Part shown: piece by piece, positions 24,579 to 30,938 of the stretch
Numbering within the stretch: position 1 is the stretch's first letter
How the letters are laid out: every line of letters begins with the position of its first letter
From: Candidatus Nanopelagicales bacterium
Lineage (GTDB): Bacteria > Actinomycetota > Actinomycetes > S36-B12 > UBA10799
Length of the DNA: 32,089 nt
NCBI GenBank assembly: GCA_030157755.1
Contig: JAOAUD010000013.1
Location: forward strand, 1-32,089
Reading direction: 5' to 3'
Made by a program: the position numbers and the translations under genes
Notes under the pieces: model-generated
Told to the model about the DNA's origin: nothing
What the model saw: only the letters and a program-made list of their open reading frames with translations
Database searches by the model: none

Positions 24579-25442
24579 ATGCCCGAGATTCTGTGCGTCG
24601 GACTCACCACTGTTGATGTGACTTATCAACTCACGGCGCAAGCCGCTGCGGGGAAGAAGACCCAAGCCCAGGGTGCGACGCTGGCCTTCGGTGGGCCCGC
24701 TGCGAATGCGGCAGCCGCGGCCGCGACGCTCGGTTCAGACGTGACGTTATGCACAACCTTCGGACAGGGCCCTTTGTCCGAGTTCGCTGTGGCAGAGCTT
24801 GGCGCCGCGGAGGTCAAGCTCGTGGCGGCGGAATCAACCGGGCAACTTCCGATCTCCTGCGTCACGCTGACTCCAGACGGTGGCCGCACGGTGGTCTCAG
24901 CCAACGGAATTGGTGTCAGCCCGACTCCCCCAACTGAGCTCGCGGCGATCGCCAGCGCCAGCAAAGTGGTGCTGGTCGACGGGCATTACCCCGACTTGGC
25001 GATGTCAGCGCTAACGAACGCGCGCGCTGCTGGTGCAACAACAGTGATCGATCTCGGCAGTTGGAAGCATGCGCTCACGAGGCTCCTGCCTGCGTGCACA
25101 GTGGCAATAGCCTCAGCAGACTTCACCGTGCCGACTCCAGATCTGTTCGAGTACCTGTTGGCGGCAGGTCCGGAATTTGTTGCAGTGACCGATGGCGGCC
25201 GCGACATAACTTGGCAAGATTCGTCCGGGAACTCTGGCCGGATCGCTGTCCCGCAGGTTGCTGCCATCGATTCAAATGGCGCCGGCGACATCCTTCACGG
25301 GGCCTTCGCATCTCTTCTGGCGGTTCATGGCGACATCGTCGAGTGCCTCACGCAGGCCGCCGCGATAGCCAGCGCTAGCTGCACAGTCCTGGGCGCCCGG
25401 ATTCCCGCGCCTGCTGCCGCGAACCTTGGGCGGCGTCAGTGA
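24579..25442 (+). CDS. PfkB-family carbohydrate kinase
   Basis: Start MPEILCVGLTTVDVTYQL with GGAGA upstream. GGPAANAAAAAATLG; C-terminal AIDSNGAGDILHGAFASLLA (PfkB signature, catalytic D). Confidence 0.88.
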   Translation: MPEILCVGLTTVDVTYQLTAQAAAGKKTQAQGATLAFGGPAANAAAAAATLGSDVTLCTTFGQGPLSEFAVAELGAAEVKLVAAESTGQLPISCVTLTPDGGRTVVSANGIGVSPTPPTELAAIASASKVVLVDGHYPDLAMSALTNARAAGATTVIDLGSWKHALTRLLPACTVAIASADFTVPTPDLFEYLLAAGPEFVAVTDGGRDITWQDSSGNSGRIAVPQVAAIDSNGAGDILHGAFASLLAVHGDIVECLTQAAAIASASCTVLGARIPAPAAANLGRRQ

Positions 25443-26200
25443 TGACCATCGCACTCTTGATCTCGGTAGCCCTGCTCGCCGGGATCTTCGCCGGTCTCAC
25501 CGGTGCGGGTGGTGGACTGATTCTGGTTCCACTGCTGGTGTTCATGGGCTATTCGGCCCTCGAATCCGTCGCCACCAGCAACATCGCGGTCATGATTTCG
25601 GCAATCTCGGCAACAGTGATGAACTCACGAGACCACGACCTTCCGTGGCGGCGAATTCTGCTCCTTGCGTTACCGGCACTGATTCTTGCGCCGGTGGGTG
25701 CGATCATCGCCAGTCGCACCCCAGAGATCGCACTCTTGATTGCGTTCTGTGCCCTCAACATCGTCAACATCTACCTACTCGGCAAACGATCACGGCTCGC
25801 AGACACAACTGATGCGACCGACGTCGGGAATGTCGCCACCAAAGTTGTAGCGGTCGGCGGCTCCGGTGGACTGCTGGCAGGACTCTTCGGTGTGGGCGGC
25901 GGATTGGTCATGGTGCCCCTGCAGGTCCAATGGCTCGCGACACCGATTCAGGCAGCAGCGAGGATCTCGCTGGCAGTGATCATCTTCTCGAGCATTGGGG
26001 CGATCTTTGGCCACGGGGTTGCCGGGGACAACGCGTTGTTCTGGACCACCGGGTTGATCTTGGGCATCGGTGGAGTGGTCGGAGCACCCATCGGCGCCCG
26101 CATTCTGAGCCGAATTTCTCAGCGAACCTCAACAATTATCTTTCAACTGACCCTGGTTGCCGTCACAATCAGTCTGTTGGTCAAGATCTTCACTCACTAA
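25439..26200 (+). CDS. TauE/SafE-family sulfite exporter-like permease
   Basis: Two homologous halves: AGIFAGLTGAGGGLILVPLLV and GLLAGLFGVGGGLVMVPLQV. Start overlaps the pfkB stop (GTGATG). Confidence 0.9.
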   Translation: MMTIALLISVALLAGIFAGLTGAGGGLILVPLLVFMGYSALESVATSNIAVMISAISATVMNSRDHDLPWRRILLLALPALILAPVGAIIASRTPEIALLIAFCALNIVNIYLLGKRSRLADTTDATDVGNVATKVVAVGGSGGLLAGLFGVGGGLVMVPLQVQWLATPIQAAARISLAVIIFSSIGAIFGHGVAGDNALFWTTGLILGIGGVVGAPIGARILSRISQRTSTIIFQLTLVAVTISLLVKIFTH

Positions 26201-26216
26201 CCCTCGTTCACTCACC

Positions 26217-26221
26217 GGAGG
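26217..26221 (+). promoter_or_regulatory. Shine-Dalgarno GGAGG placed 6 nt before an in-frame ATC (26228)
   Basis: Sequence caccGGAGGcaacaaATCAGC; no ATG/GTG/TTG/CTG in this frame between the TauE stop (26198-26200) and ATG 26306. Confidence 0.6.
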
Positions 26222-26227
26222 CAACAA

Positions 26228-27406
26228 ATCAGCGCATCAAGACGCGAACACGCGAGCACCATTCGCAGTGTCGAGAAGCGCCGTGGCGAACTACGCGATG
26301 CCTCCATGGCGCGCCTGCGCGAACTCGAATGGTTCGACGGTTTGTCGGATGACGCGCAAGGCTGGGTCAGCGAGGTCGTCGATGCTGGCATTGCTCGGTT
26401 CCTGGTGTGGCTCAACAACCCAGAAGAGCCGCTACTCGCGTCCAATACCGGTCTGGGTTCTGTGCCGACCGCCGCCGCTCATGCGGTCTCGTTGGGTCAG
26501 ACAGTCGAACTGATCAGCACGGGTCTCGAGGCAATCGAACCCGTCGCTGCCACGATGGCCGCGAAAGGCGATGAGGAATGGCTCCTGCAACAAATCGCCA
26601 AGTACGGTCGTGAGATCGCATTTGCCGCCGCACTGGTCTACGCACGAGTTGCCGAACAGCAAGGTGCACGAACCGCCCGCCAGAGTTCAGGTCTGGTGGA
26701 CGCCCTCATCACCGGCAGATCAGCCGCAGCTATCGAGCTACTAGCAAGCCGCGTTGGGTTTGCCCCTGCGGCTCCGGTGCGAGTTGCAGCCTGCGTACCC
26801 ACCCAAGATCCGCAGCTCGCCCTTGCCGAAATTGAACGGGCCGCACGCAAACTCGACCGTCATGTGGTCACCGCGCTGCATGAGGGGCTCGTCGTGGCGA
26901 TCTGGGCGACCCGGAGTCGAGAACATCCACTGACCGTCGCACGCCAGTTGTTCGGGCCACACGCGTCGGCCGTGGTGGCAGGCCCGACCGAATCCATCGT
27001 TGCTGCTGGCCCCGCACTGCGCCGTGCCATGGCTGGACTGGCGGCGAGGCCCGCGCGCCCGAGTAACCGGGAGGTCCTTGAGGCAAGCGATCTGCTGCCG
27101 GAACGAGCCCTCATCGGCGAACTAGCTGCCCAGGATGAATTGGTCGAACGTTGTTACGCCCGCCTGAATGGCAGTGGCACCGGATTGCTCGAGACAGTTG
27201 ATGTCATGTTCGACAACCAAGGCGTTCTTGAACAGGCCGCGAAGGCCCTGCCTGTCCACGTCAATACCCTGCGGTACCGGATCGACCGCATCGCCGAACT
27301 GACCGGTTTCGACCTTCGCGACAGCCGTGGTGCTTTTGCAATCTTCACCGGGGTGAGCCTCGGAAGGATGCGCGAAGCCACCGGCGCGGCACCCATCGAT
27401 TTGTAG
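26228..27406 (+). CDS. fasR: PucR/CdaR-type HTH regulator, FasR-like regulator of the fatty-acid synthase operon (probable ATC start; ATG at 26306 is the ORF-track start)
   Basis: C-terminal HTH_30-type MFDNQGVLEQAAKALPVHVNTLRYRIDRIAELTGFDLRDSRGAFAIFTGV; directly upstream of fabD-fabH-acpP-fabF as in Streptomyces. N-terminal extension SASRREHASTIRSVEKRRGELRDAS is in frame. Confidence 0.8.
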   Translation: MSASRREHASTIRSVEKRRGELRDASMARLRELEWFDGLSDDAQGWVSEVVDAGIARFLVWLNNPEEPLLASNTGLGSVPTAAAHAVSLGQTVELISTGLEAIEPVAATMAAKGDEEWLLQQIAKYGREIAFAAALVYARVAEQQGARTARQSSGLVDALITGRSAAAIELLASRVGFAPAAPVRVAACVPTQDPQLALAEIERAARKLDRHVVTALHEGLVVAIWATRSREHPLTVARQLFGPHASAVVAGPTESIVAAGPALRRAMAGLAARPARPSNREVLEASDLLPERALIGELAAQDELVERCYARLNGSGTGLLETVDVMFDNQGVLEQAAKALPVHVNTLRYRIDRIAELTGFDLRDSRGAFAIFTGVSLGRMREATGAAPIDL

Positions 27407-27410
27407 GAAT

Positions 27411-27440
27411 CCTCCAAAGACCTCGCCGGATCTTCGGAGG
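27411..27440 (+). promoter_or_regulatory. Inverted repeat in the fasR-fabD intergenic region (operator, leader hairpin or terminator)
   Basis: CCTCCAAAGA-cctcgccgga-TCTTCGGAGG, 9 of 10 arm positions complementary. No T-tract follows. Confidence 0.4.
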
Positions 27441-27485
27441 GGTTGCTAGACGACAAACTGGCCCGGCCGCCCGCAACATTGAGAT

Positions 27486-28421
27486 GTGCTCATATTCATC
27501 TCGCCCGGCCAGGGCGCTCAACGGCCCGGAATGCTTGCGCCTTGGTTAGCCGATCCAACGGCCAGGGAGCAGCTCGAATCCCTCGATGCCTGCGTTGAAT
27601 TCGACCTCCTCGACGCGGGAACGACGTGGGATGCCGACCGCATTCGCGACACTCGCATCGCCCAACCGTTGATCTTCGCCACCTCACTCGTGTCTGCCTA
27701 CGCGGCGCTTACGGCTCACGCAAAGCCTGCTGCGGTAACCGGCCACAGCGTTGGTGAATGGTGTTCTGCCGTGTTGGCTGGGGTTCTCACCGCCACTGAC
27801 GCGATGACGCTTGTTGCAGCGCGCGGCAACGCGATGGCGTTGGCCTGCGAAGAGGAACCGACAGGACTGTGTGCCGTGCTCGGTGGCGATCAAGAGGAGG
27901 TCAACGAGGCAGCCACAGCACGCGGCCTCGCGCTGGCCAATAACAACGGACCAGGCCAACTGGTCTTCGGCGGAACCCGCGAACAACTCGATTCGTTCGC
28001 CGCTAGTCCACCGGCGAAGGCTCGGATTCGTTCCCTCGAAGTTGCCGGTGCTTTCCACACAGAGGCCATGCATCCGGCGGTTGCGCAGGTCAGTGAGGTC
28101 GCTGCGACATACGCCGTCAATGATGCCGACATCCCATTGATTTCGAATCGCGACGGCTCGATGGTCACCAACGGCCGCCAAATCCTTGATCGCCTTGTGG
28201 ATCAGATCGCCCTGCCGGTGCGGTGGGACCTCGTCATGGAAACCATGACCGCGATCGAAACGACTGTGGCAATCGAGACCTGCCCTTCCGGGACGCTCAG
28301 CGGAATCCTGCGGCGCAACGTGAAGTCGGTGACAACGCGGACCGTCGACACCCCGCAGGACGCACAAGCACTGCTGACAACTGATCTACGAACCAGCGAA
28401 CTCACGGGGGCACATCGATGA
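27486..28421 (+). CDS. fabD: Malonyl-CoA:ACP transacylase
   Basis: GTG start; ISPGQGAQRPGM, VTGHSVGEWCSAVLAG, VAGAFHTEAMHPA. Confidence 0.93.
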   Translation: MLIFISPGQGAQRPGMLAPWLADPTAREQLESLDACVEFDLLDAGTTWDADRIRDTRIAQPLIFATSLVSAYAALTAHAKPAAVTGHSVGEWCSAVLAGVLTATDAMTLVAARGNAMALACEEEPTGLCAVLGGDQEEVNEAATARGLALANNNGPGQLVFGGTREQLDSFAASPPAKARIRSLEVAGAFHTEAMHPAVAQVSEVAATYAVNDADIPLISNRDGSMVTNGRQILDRLVDQIALPVRWDLVMETMTAIETTVAIETCPSGTLSGILRRNVKSVTTRTVDTPQDAQALLTTDLRTSELTGAHR

Positions 28422-29362
28422 ACGGCGCAAAGATTCTCTCAATCGCGGCACAACGCCCGGCTCGCACGATGTCGAACGACGAACTACCGGGCAAGTTCGA
28501 CATCGACGACGCCTGGATTCAATCCCGCACTGGAATCGCAACTCGAGGTGTCGCCAACGTTGAGGAAACCTTGGTCGAGATGTCGGCTGGCGCTGCCAGC
28601 AAGGCCATTGCGGAAGCAGGTATCGATCCTGCGACCATCGACCTCACAATCGTCGCCACCTCGTCGAATCCGATCACCACACCAGGGATTGCTCCCCCGC
28701 TGACAGATCGCTTGGGTCTGACGTCCGGCGCCTTCGACATCATGGCTGCTTGCGCAGGATTCTGCTATAGCGTGAATGTTGCCGCCGATTCGATCCGCGC
28801 AGGTAGCGCTCGCAACGTCCTTGTTGTCGGGGCCGAACGCATCACGGACCGCATGGACTGGAACGACCGCAATACGTGCTACCTCTTCGGAGACGGCGCG
28901 GGTGCAGCCATCATCTCGGCAACCGACGTTGACGATGACGGCATCGGCCCAGTGGTGTGGGGCAGCGATGGCGCGCTTGCTGACTACATTGCGCAGCCGA
29001 TGGACAGCCCCTACCTGCAAATGGATGGCCAAGCTGTCTTCAAGTGGGCAATCACCGAACTTGCAGGATTCGCACGAGAAGCCTGCGAGAAGGCGGGCAT
29101 CGAGCCAAAGGATCTCGCTGCATTCGTTCCCCACCAAGCCAACCTGCGCATCGTCGAATCGGTCGCGCGCAACCTCGGTGTCGGCGAATCGACAGTGGTC
29201 GCCGACGACGTGCGCTACTCCGGCAACACCTCGGCGGCCAGCATCCCTCTCGCGATTTCACGCATGAAGGAAGAGGGTCGCATCCAGTCCGGTGACTCCA
29301 CCCTGCTCATCGGCTTCGGGTCAGGAATGACTTGGGCATCGCAGGTCATCCGCTGCCCGTAG
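28418..29362 (+). CDS. fabH: 3-oxoacyl-ACP synthase III
   Basis: ATG overlaps the fabD stop (ATGA). Catalytic Cys FDIMAACAGFCYSV, His FVPHQANLRI, Asn YSGNTSAASIP. Confidence 0.95.
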   Translation: MNGAKILSIAAQRPARTMSNDELPGKFDIDDAWIQSRTGIATRGVANVEETLVEMSAGAASKAIAEAGIDPATIDLTIVATSSNPITTPGIAPPLTDRLGLTSGAFDIMAACAGFCYSVNVAADSIRAGSARNVLVVGAERITDRMDWNDRNTCYLFGDGAGAAIISATDVDDDGIGPVVWGSDGALADYIAQPMDSPYLQMDGQAVFKWAITELAGFAREACEKAGIEPKDLAAFVPHQANLRIVESVARNLGVGESTVVADDVRYSGNTSAASIPLAISRMKEEGRIQSGDSTLLIGFGSGMTWASQVIRCP

Positions 29363-29415
29363 ATCAATCACTTCACATCTTCGTACGTTCAACAACCAAC
29401 CAATTGGAGAAACAA

Positions 29416-29694
29416 ATGTCAGACATCAACCTCACCGACAGCACGACGGTCCTCGCCACCCTCACCGAGGTCATCGAAGAGATCGCCGGTCCGCGTTCGG
29501 TCGCCATCACTCGCGAAGCCGCGTTCGACGCTGACCTCGGCCTCGACTCGCTGACGATGGTCGAGATCATCGTCGTCGCTGAAGAACGCTTCGACATCAA
29601 GATTCCGGACTCCGCGTTTGCCGAAATGACCACTGTGGGCGAAGCCGTCGACTTCATCACCGACTCGGTGAAGGCTGCAAAGGCATCAGCATGA
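29416..29694 (+). CDS. acpP: Acyl carrier protein
   Basis: Phosphopantetheine site ADLGLDSLTMVEI; GGAGA SD before ATG 29416 (the ORF track extends to 29332, inside fabH). Confidence 0.95.
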   Translation: MSDINLTDSTTVLATLTEVIEEIAGPRSVAITREAAFDADLGLDSLTMVEIIVVAEERFDIKIPDSAFAEMTTVGEAVDFITDSVKAAKASA

Positions 29695-30938
29695 CCAACT
29701 CCAACGATGCGGTGGTCGTGACGGGAATTGGCGCCACGACACCGCTCGGCGGAACTGCCCAGTCGAGTTGGCAACAACTGCTTGCCGGTGAGTCTGGGAT
29801 CAGCCAACTCACCGCCGACTGGGCCCGCGACCTGCCCGTGCGAATCGCGGGAGTCGCGGCGGTCGACCCCACGACCGAACTTGATCGAGTCCAGGCTCGA
29901 CGTTGGGATCGATCGCAGCAGTTCGCCGTGATTTCTGCGCGTGAAGCGTGGGCAGATGCGGGGCTTGTCGACTTCGACCAACCCGAACGGCTTGCTGTCG
30001 CGTTTGCATCGGGAATTGGCGGAGTAACCACCCTGCTTTCGTCCTACGACACACTCAATACGCGTGGTGCGAGCCGGATCTCACCGCTGGCCGTCACGAT
30101 GTTGATGCCTAACGGACCCGCGGCAGCGGTTGGCCTCGATCTGGGTGCACAAGCCGGCGTCCATACGCCTGTGAGTGCCTGTGCTTCGGGGGCCGAGGCC
30201 GTGTCACTCGGCCTGGATCTCATCGCTCTCGGCCGGGCAGATGTAGTTGTCTGCGGTGGCACTGAGGCAAGCGTGCATGCGCTTCCCATCGCCGGTTTCG
30301 CAGCGATGCGAGCACTCTCGACCCGAAATGACGAGCCACAGGCCGCGTCGCGACCGTACGACAAGGGCCGCGACGGCTTTGTCCTCGGTGAAGGCGCAGG
30401 AGCCCTAGTACTGGAACGTCGCAGCCACGCCATTGCCCGCGGAGCAACCATCTACGCCGAAGTTGCTGGCGCCGGTGTGACGTCAGATGCCTTCCACGTG
30501 GCGGCTCCCGATCCGGAGGGTCTTGGGGCCAGCCGCGCAATCTCGATCGCGTTGGCGAATGCAGGGGCGAGCGCGAGCGACGTCGTCCACATCAATGCCC
30601 ACGCCACGAGCACACCGGTTGGCGATGTAGCTGAGTCGGCCGCGCTTCACCGCGCACTCGGATCATCGGCCGATTCAATTGCGGTCAGCGCTACCAAGGC
30701 GTCAACGGGGCACCTGCTCGGAGCAGCAGGAGCAGTCGAAGCCGTCTTCAGCGTGCTTGCCCTCAAGGACGGCATCGCTCCCCCAACGCGGAACTTGGAT
30801 TCACAGGATGACGAGGTACACCTCGATGTCGTTCGAGTCGAGGGACGTCAGATCAACGGCGAAGGCATCGCACTGAGCACATCGTTCGGTTTTGGTGGCC
30901 ACAACGTTGCGTTGGCATTCCGCGGTGATCGCGGATGA
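29691..30938 (+). CDS. fabF: 3-oxoacyl-ACP synthase II
   Basis: ATG overlaps the acpP stop (ATGA). VVVTGIGATTPLG, VSACASGAEAV active-site Cys, NAHATSTPVGD and KASTGHLLGAAG His motifs. Confidence 0.95.
   Translation: MTNSNDAVVVTGIGATTPLGGTAQSSWQQLLAGESGISQLTADWARDLPVRIAGVAAVDPTTELDRVQARRWDRSQQFAVISAREAWADAGLVDFDQPERLAVAFASGIGGVTTLLSSYDTLNTRGASRISPLAVTMLMPNGPAAAVGLDLGAQAGVHTPVSACASGAEAVSLGLDLIALGRADVVVCGGTEASVHALPIAGFAAMRALSTRNDEPQAASRPYDKGRDGFVLGEGAGALVLERRSHAIARGATIYAEVAGAGVTSDAFHVAAPDPEGLGASRAISIALANAGASASDVVHINAHATSTPVGDVAESAALHRALGSSADSIAVSATKASTGHLLGAAGAVEAVFSVLALKDGIAPPTRNLDSQDDEVHLDVVRVEGRQINGEGIALSTSFGFGGHNVALAFRGDRG

Follow-up and report, generated by a model that had tools for sequence, protein, structure and literature searches.

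A predicted AUC start codon, conserved within its genus, on a FasR-type regulator gene of an actinobacterial genome

Translation of the fasR gene in the window (the whole stretch of 32,089 nucleotides analysed here) is predicted to begin at an ATC codon (26228-26230) placed behind a Shine-Dalgarno (SD) sequence, a start that is well supported as far as sequence can support one. All four genomes sampled for the genus carry ATC at the equivalent position, each time preceded by an SD. Initiation at this codon would be weak, and we infer that fasR is probably repressed by IF3 as a consequence, capping the dosage of a probable activator of the FAS-II operon.

The start region of fasR in the window and its genus

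The window comes from a draft genome of 2.16 Mb (175 contigs, 84% complete), of which it forms a single contig; among named relatives, those closest to this genome are metagenome-assembled genomes of actinobacteria. The features of the window described below all lie on its forward strand. A tauE/safE-like transporter gene (25439-26200; PF01925, E=6.7e-42) ends with TAA 26198-26200, and downstream of it the SD GGAGG (26217-26221) and the spacer CAACAA (26222-26227) precede the ATC, which lies 6 nt behind the SD and opens a frame of 392 codons up to TAG 27404-27406. Read codon by codon, the window contains no in-frame ATG, GTG, TTG or CTG between TAA 26198-26200 and the ATG at 26306-26308 (codon 27), the first canonical codon of the frame. 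The other near-cognate codon in frame is an ATT at codon 12 (26261), which has no SD. The initial annotation of this region had described an ATC behind GGAGG, in frame with the regulator and with no canonical codon before ATG 26306, and the sequence agrees with that description. The predicted RNA fold at the fasR start is weak (z -0.68), giving no structure that would mask it, and a scan for sigma-70-type promoters around fasR found none.

The genus sample comprised four draft genomes, all of them metagenome-assembled as far as records show, and fasR was present in each. The proteins of the three relatives are 90% (L009, DMNR01000395.1), 76% (L004) and 75% (L010, CAMPEQ010000008.1) identical to that of the window, and their alignments all still began exactly at the ATC when the query was extended by nine upstream codons. 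The SDs of the relatives are GGAGG (5 nt before the ATC), GGAG (7 nt) and GAGGTGA (7 nt), the weakest of the four genomes being that of L004, which has only GGAG; in L009, the spacing between SD and ATC has been shifted by an indel. The 5' flanks are divergent, with the 30 bases before the ATC matching at 3 to 13 of 30 ungapped positions. Between the last upstream stop and codon 27, the four genomes hold no ATG, GTG or TTG except for a TTG at codon 22 of L009, which has no SD. The L009 frame is open for 65 codons upstream of the ATC, overlapping tauE, with a CTG at codon -62 as the sole candidate start in that stretch.

A sequencing or assembly error at 26228-26230 might be suspected in a window that comes from a draft assembly, but this explanation is refuted by the occurrence of the same codon in the genomes of three other species, two of which have public records of different origin (DMNR01000395.1 and CAMPEQ010000008.1).

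The combination of an SD and an ATC in one genome alone is unremarkable. Scanning about 0.68 Mb of the window's genome (G000) and 1.45 Mb of a congener (G002) showed that codons unable to start translation (CTC, GAA, GTC) follow good SDs in frames of coding character as frequently as ATC does; a scan of this kind within a single genome therefore has no power. Moreover, Ile is often encoded by ATC in these genomes, so the identity of the codon by itself is weak evidence. Where ortholog pairs share an identical non-canonical codon near the N terminus, both genomes have an SD in 5.6% of cases, as compared with 26% where both codons are canonical. The weight for the predicted ATC start rests on conservation: in all four genomes the same ATC marks the onset of protein homology and is preceded, at 5-7 nt, by an SD.

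The stretch upstream of ATG 26306 and the starts of orthologs

Gene callers would pick ATG 26306 as the start of fasR and leave the upstream stretch as a leader, and this ATG is indeed retained in all four genomes of the genus. The initial annotation had noted that it lacks an obvious SD, and the same holds in each of the four genomes. Codons 12-26 evolve as coding sequence, with 20, 18 and 46 differences among the four genomes at codon positions 1, 2 and 3, a pattern like that of codons 27-76 (48, 48 and 165); variation mainly at third positions implies that codons 12-26 are translated. Codons 2-11 form a variable tail (26, 30 and 34 differences at the three positions), too divergent for base-by-base proof of translation, and constraint of the coding type becomes evident only from around codon 12.

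Structural comparison points in the same direction. Leucine 22 (L22) is the same in all 26 orthologs compared, and the AlphaFold model of the fasR product (mean pLDDT 87.8) has helices at residues 9-17 and 19-30, with a mean pLDDT of 91-92 for residues 11-30. The N-terminal domain of Mycobacterium tuberculosis MabR (PDB 9fb1) aligns with residues 10-143 (E=5.2e-10), and helix alpha2 of MabR, which spans D24-R48 and is kinked at S34 (PMC11617747), corresponds to about residues 9-33 of the window's product. Codons 9-30 (26252-26317) are accordingly assigned to the kinked helix B of the globin-like domain on the basis of the AlphaFold model, the MabR alignment and the invariant L22. Translation from ATG 26306 would yield a protein without that leucine and without most of the helix found in solved MabR; the initial annotation had stated that such a start would cut about 26 residues leading into the conserved N-terminal region of this regulator type. 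The orthologs outside the genus do not begin at the equivalent of ATG 26306 but about 25 codons upstream of it. Combined, these observations make ATG 26306 a very improbable main start, and the ATC remains the preferred one.

Elsewhere in the order, a canonical codon falls no more than 11 codons from the equivalent of the ATC in 25 of 26 FasR loci; within the genus, all congeners have ATC itself. The exception among the 26 loci (L033 in G029, from another family of the order, minus strand, near locus position 2664) has no ATG, GTG or TTG near its start and carries a CTG 7 nt behind a GGAGG, possibly an independent non-canonical start of fasR.

Initiation at codon 12, or at another near-cognate codon in place of codon 1, would fit the onset of clear coding constraint there, and codon 12 reads ATT, ATC, ATC and ATC across the four genomes. 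It is nevertheless a very improbable alternative, given that codon 12 has no proper SD (only L010 has a GGAG, at 3 nt) while codon 1 has an SD in each genome, and that orthologs such as L007 (GTG) and L023 (ATG) have their starts close to codon 1-4.

The orthologs in the rest of the order start mostly with GTG or ATG, often without an SD. In many of them, L012, L014, L027 and L029 included, a TAGGCT-like hexamer lies a few bases before the GTG at the upstream end of fasR, without an SD. This arrangement looks like leaderless transcription, from which the genus of the window would have switched to an SD-led start.

The regulator and its neighbourhood

The gene begun at the ATC (26228-27406) encodes a PucR-type FAS-II regulator (FasR/MabR) of 392 amino acids, with a globin-like N domain followed by GGDEF_2 and HTH_30, as assigned from Pfam, PDB and AlphaFold. 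Pfam matches to PF13556 (70.2 bits) and PF17853 (30.2 bits), together with PDB matches to 9f80 and 3onq, indicate that the C-terminal PucR helix-turn-helix and the GGDEF-like domain are present; PDB matches were obtained to both the N and C domains of Rv2242/MabR. The globin-like domain is of the MabR type, according to the 9fb1 match and the arrangement of helices as in MabR. The gene lies directly upstream of fabD (27486-28421; PF00698, acyltransferase families), the first gene of a FAS-II cluster that FasR probably activates, followed by fabH at 28418 and by ACP-like and KAS-II-like ORFs at 29332-30938, the latter assigned by sequence; the gene order is the same in L010. With matches to both MabR structures and with fabD and fabH adjoining, the earlier assignment as FasR proved right. 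Depletion of MabR reduces fasII transcripts, and FasR of Streptomyces coelicolor induces its fasII operon (PMC5541348); like these orthologs, the FasR of the window is probably an activator of the adjacent FAS-II operon.

The gap between fasR and fabD contains an inverted repeat, CCTCCAAAGA...TCTTCGGAGG (27411-27440), whose arms are conserved in L009 and L010. FasR/MabR-type regulators bind PfasII at an inverted repeat and activate this promoter. The repeat of the window pairs in the predicted fold, but with a stability no better than that of shuffled sequences, and it is therefore likelier to be a putative DNA operator of FasR than an RNA element. Within 27440-27490, fabD has a GTG start without a clear SD, with conserved TTGCT and CATT-like blocks upstream; fabD may be leaderless.

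On the other side of fasR, tauE shares the frame of fasR in the window and in L004 with a single TAA between them, a layout from which a low-level TauE-FasR readthrough fusion had been proposed. The frame is not conserved, since the frame of tauE differs from that of fasR in L009 and no tauE lies upstream of fasR in L010, making it extremely improbable that FasR is produced in this way. In L010 (positions 1-2836, G002), divergent SDR and hydratase-like genes are found upstream of fasR in place of tauE.

IF3, infC and known systems

An ATC start is shared by a second gene of the genus. When about 0.68 Mb of G000 was compared with 1.45 Mb of G002, 184 ortholog pairs proved usable, and among these an identical ATC near the N terminus, preceded by an SD in each of the two genomes, was seen four times. 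Two of these are clear starts, those of fasR and of infC (IF3), and the remaining two were judged to be internal codons; by-eye inspection of the pairs without an early canonical codon found alignments running upstream of an ordinary ATG or GTG, or antisense frames. The infC loci (L062, G000:C8, minus strand, and L082, G002:C7, representing two of the four genus genomes) both read AGAAGGAGG-CGCC-ATC-AGC, and an annotation restricted to canonical starts would misplace them. The infC start is ATT in Escherichia coli and ATC in Streptomyces and is repressed by IF3, and starts of this kind are misannotated (PMC5472188).

Our proposal for fasR is that the AUC would be positioned by the SD but would offer the initiator tRNA two matching bases instead of three, making initiation weak and subject to expected rejection by IF3. 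FasR levels would thereby stay low, increasing whenever IF3 becomes limiting in relation to the 30S subunits. If FasR activates the neighbouring FAS-II operon, the ceiling of FAS-II expression would be set by translation fidelity. The initial annotation had suggested that a low-efficiency start could set the dosage of the regulator; the ATC start of infC strengthens this suggestion, and dosage control of the IF3 type is plausible. The low yield, the repression by IF3, the activator role and the physiological coupling are each inferred. Since infC shares the AUC start, fasR and infC would respond to the same signal. A more far-reaching reading, possible though doubtful, is that the two genes form a pair through which the ratio of free IF3 to 30S subunits would determine how much FAS-II activator is made, tying membrane-lipid synthesis to the translation machinery.

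The AUC could instead be a start without a regulatory role, an earlier ATG or GTG having drifted to ATC in the ancestor of the genus with a strong SD compensating. The SDs in all four genus genomes would fit such a history, as would the use of GTG or ATG, often without an SD, by relatives elsewhere in the order. However, a one-base change to ATG would be easy, yet the ATC has persisted through protein divergence to 75% identity. In ancestral reconstructions, replacement of AUG by AUU or CUG is also extremely rare and disfavoured, with 1 AUU among 61,358 ancestral AUG starts (PMC5622118), and weak starts are inherently sensitive to IF3. Drift without regulation is therefore considered rather unlikely, and a dosage-limiting start remains the favoured reading.

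With a start other than ATG, GTG or TTG, no canonical alternative nearby, and both a good SD and the start itself retained throughout the genus, fasR appears to join the small class of genes with non-canonical starts typified by infC and sigR. Few bacterial genes with starts outside ATG, GTG and TTG have been characterized experimentally, and such genes are often misannotated; an AUC start conserved in a genus, on a gene that regulates a core pathway, would add to infC and sigR. It would also be a putative case of IF3-gated gene dosage, suggesting a translational link between ribosome function, through its fidelity, and lipid synthesis.

Comparison with known systems places these features in context. 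FasR of S. coelicolor and MabR (Rv2242) have the same domain order as the window's FasR, with solved MabR N and C domains that match it, and are likewise encoded next to fabD; the orthologs in the order differ in the start codon. The GTG start of E. coli lacI (PMC11445065) resembles the role proposed for that of fasR, as a weak start codon governing the dosage of a regulator, with a fitness effect in lacI, but GTG is an ordinary alternative start and LacI is a repressor whereas FasR is a probable activator. With infC, which has an AUU or AUC start and is autoregulated, fasR shares the AUC codon and the SD-led layout; the product of infC is the fidelity factor, which acts on its own gene, while fasR would be a downstream target without feedback on IF3. 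The closest precedent is sigR of Streptomyces, which starts with GTC behind AGGAGGTG and is repressed by IF3 (Feeney et al. 2017, PMC5472188). In that system, changing GTC to ATG in a sigR-gus fusion raises expression about 4-fold, and additional infC reduces SigR, whose level goes up in infC fidelity mutants (PMC5472188). Both sigR and fasR encode actinobacterial transcription regulators with a non-canonical start behind a strong, conserved SD, the start being conserved in the genus and canonical elsewhere. They differ in the codon (GUC rather than AUC), in the process governed (oxidative stress as opposed to fatty-acid synthesis) and in the anti-sigma partner, which fasR lacks; control by IF3 has been demonstrated for sigR and is proposed for fasR.
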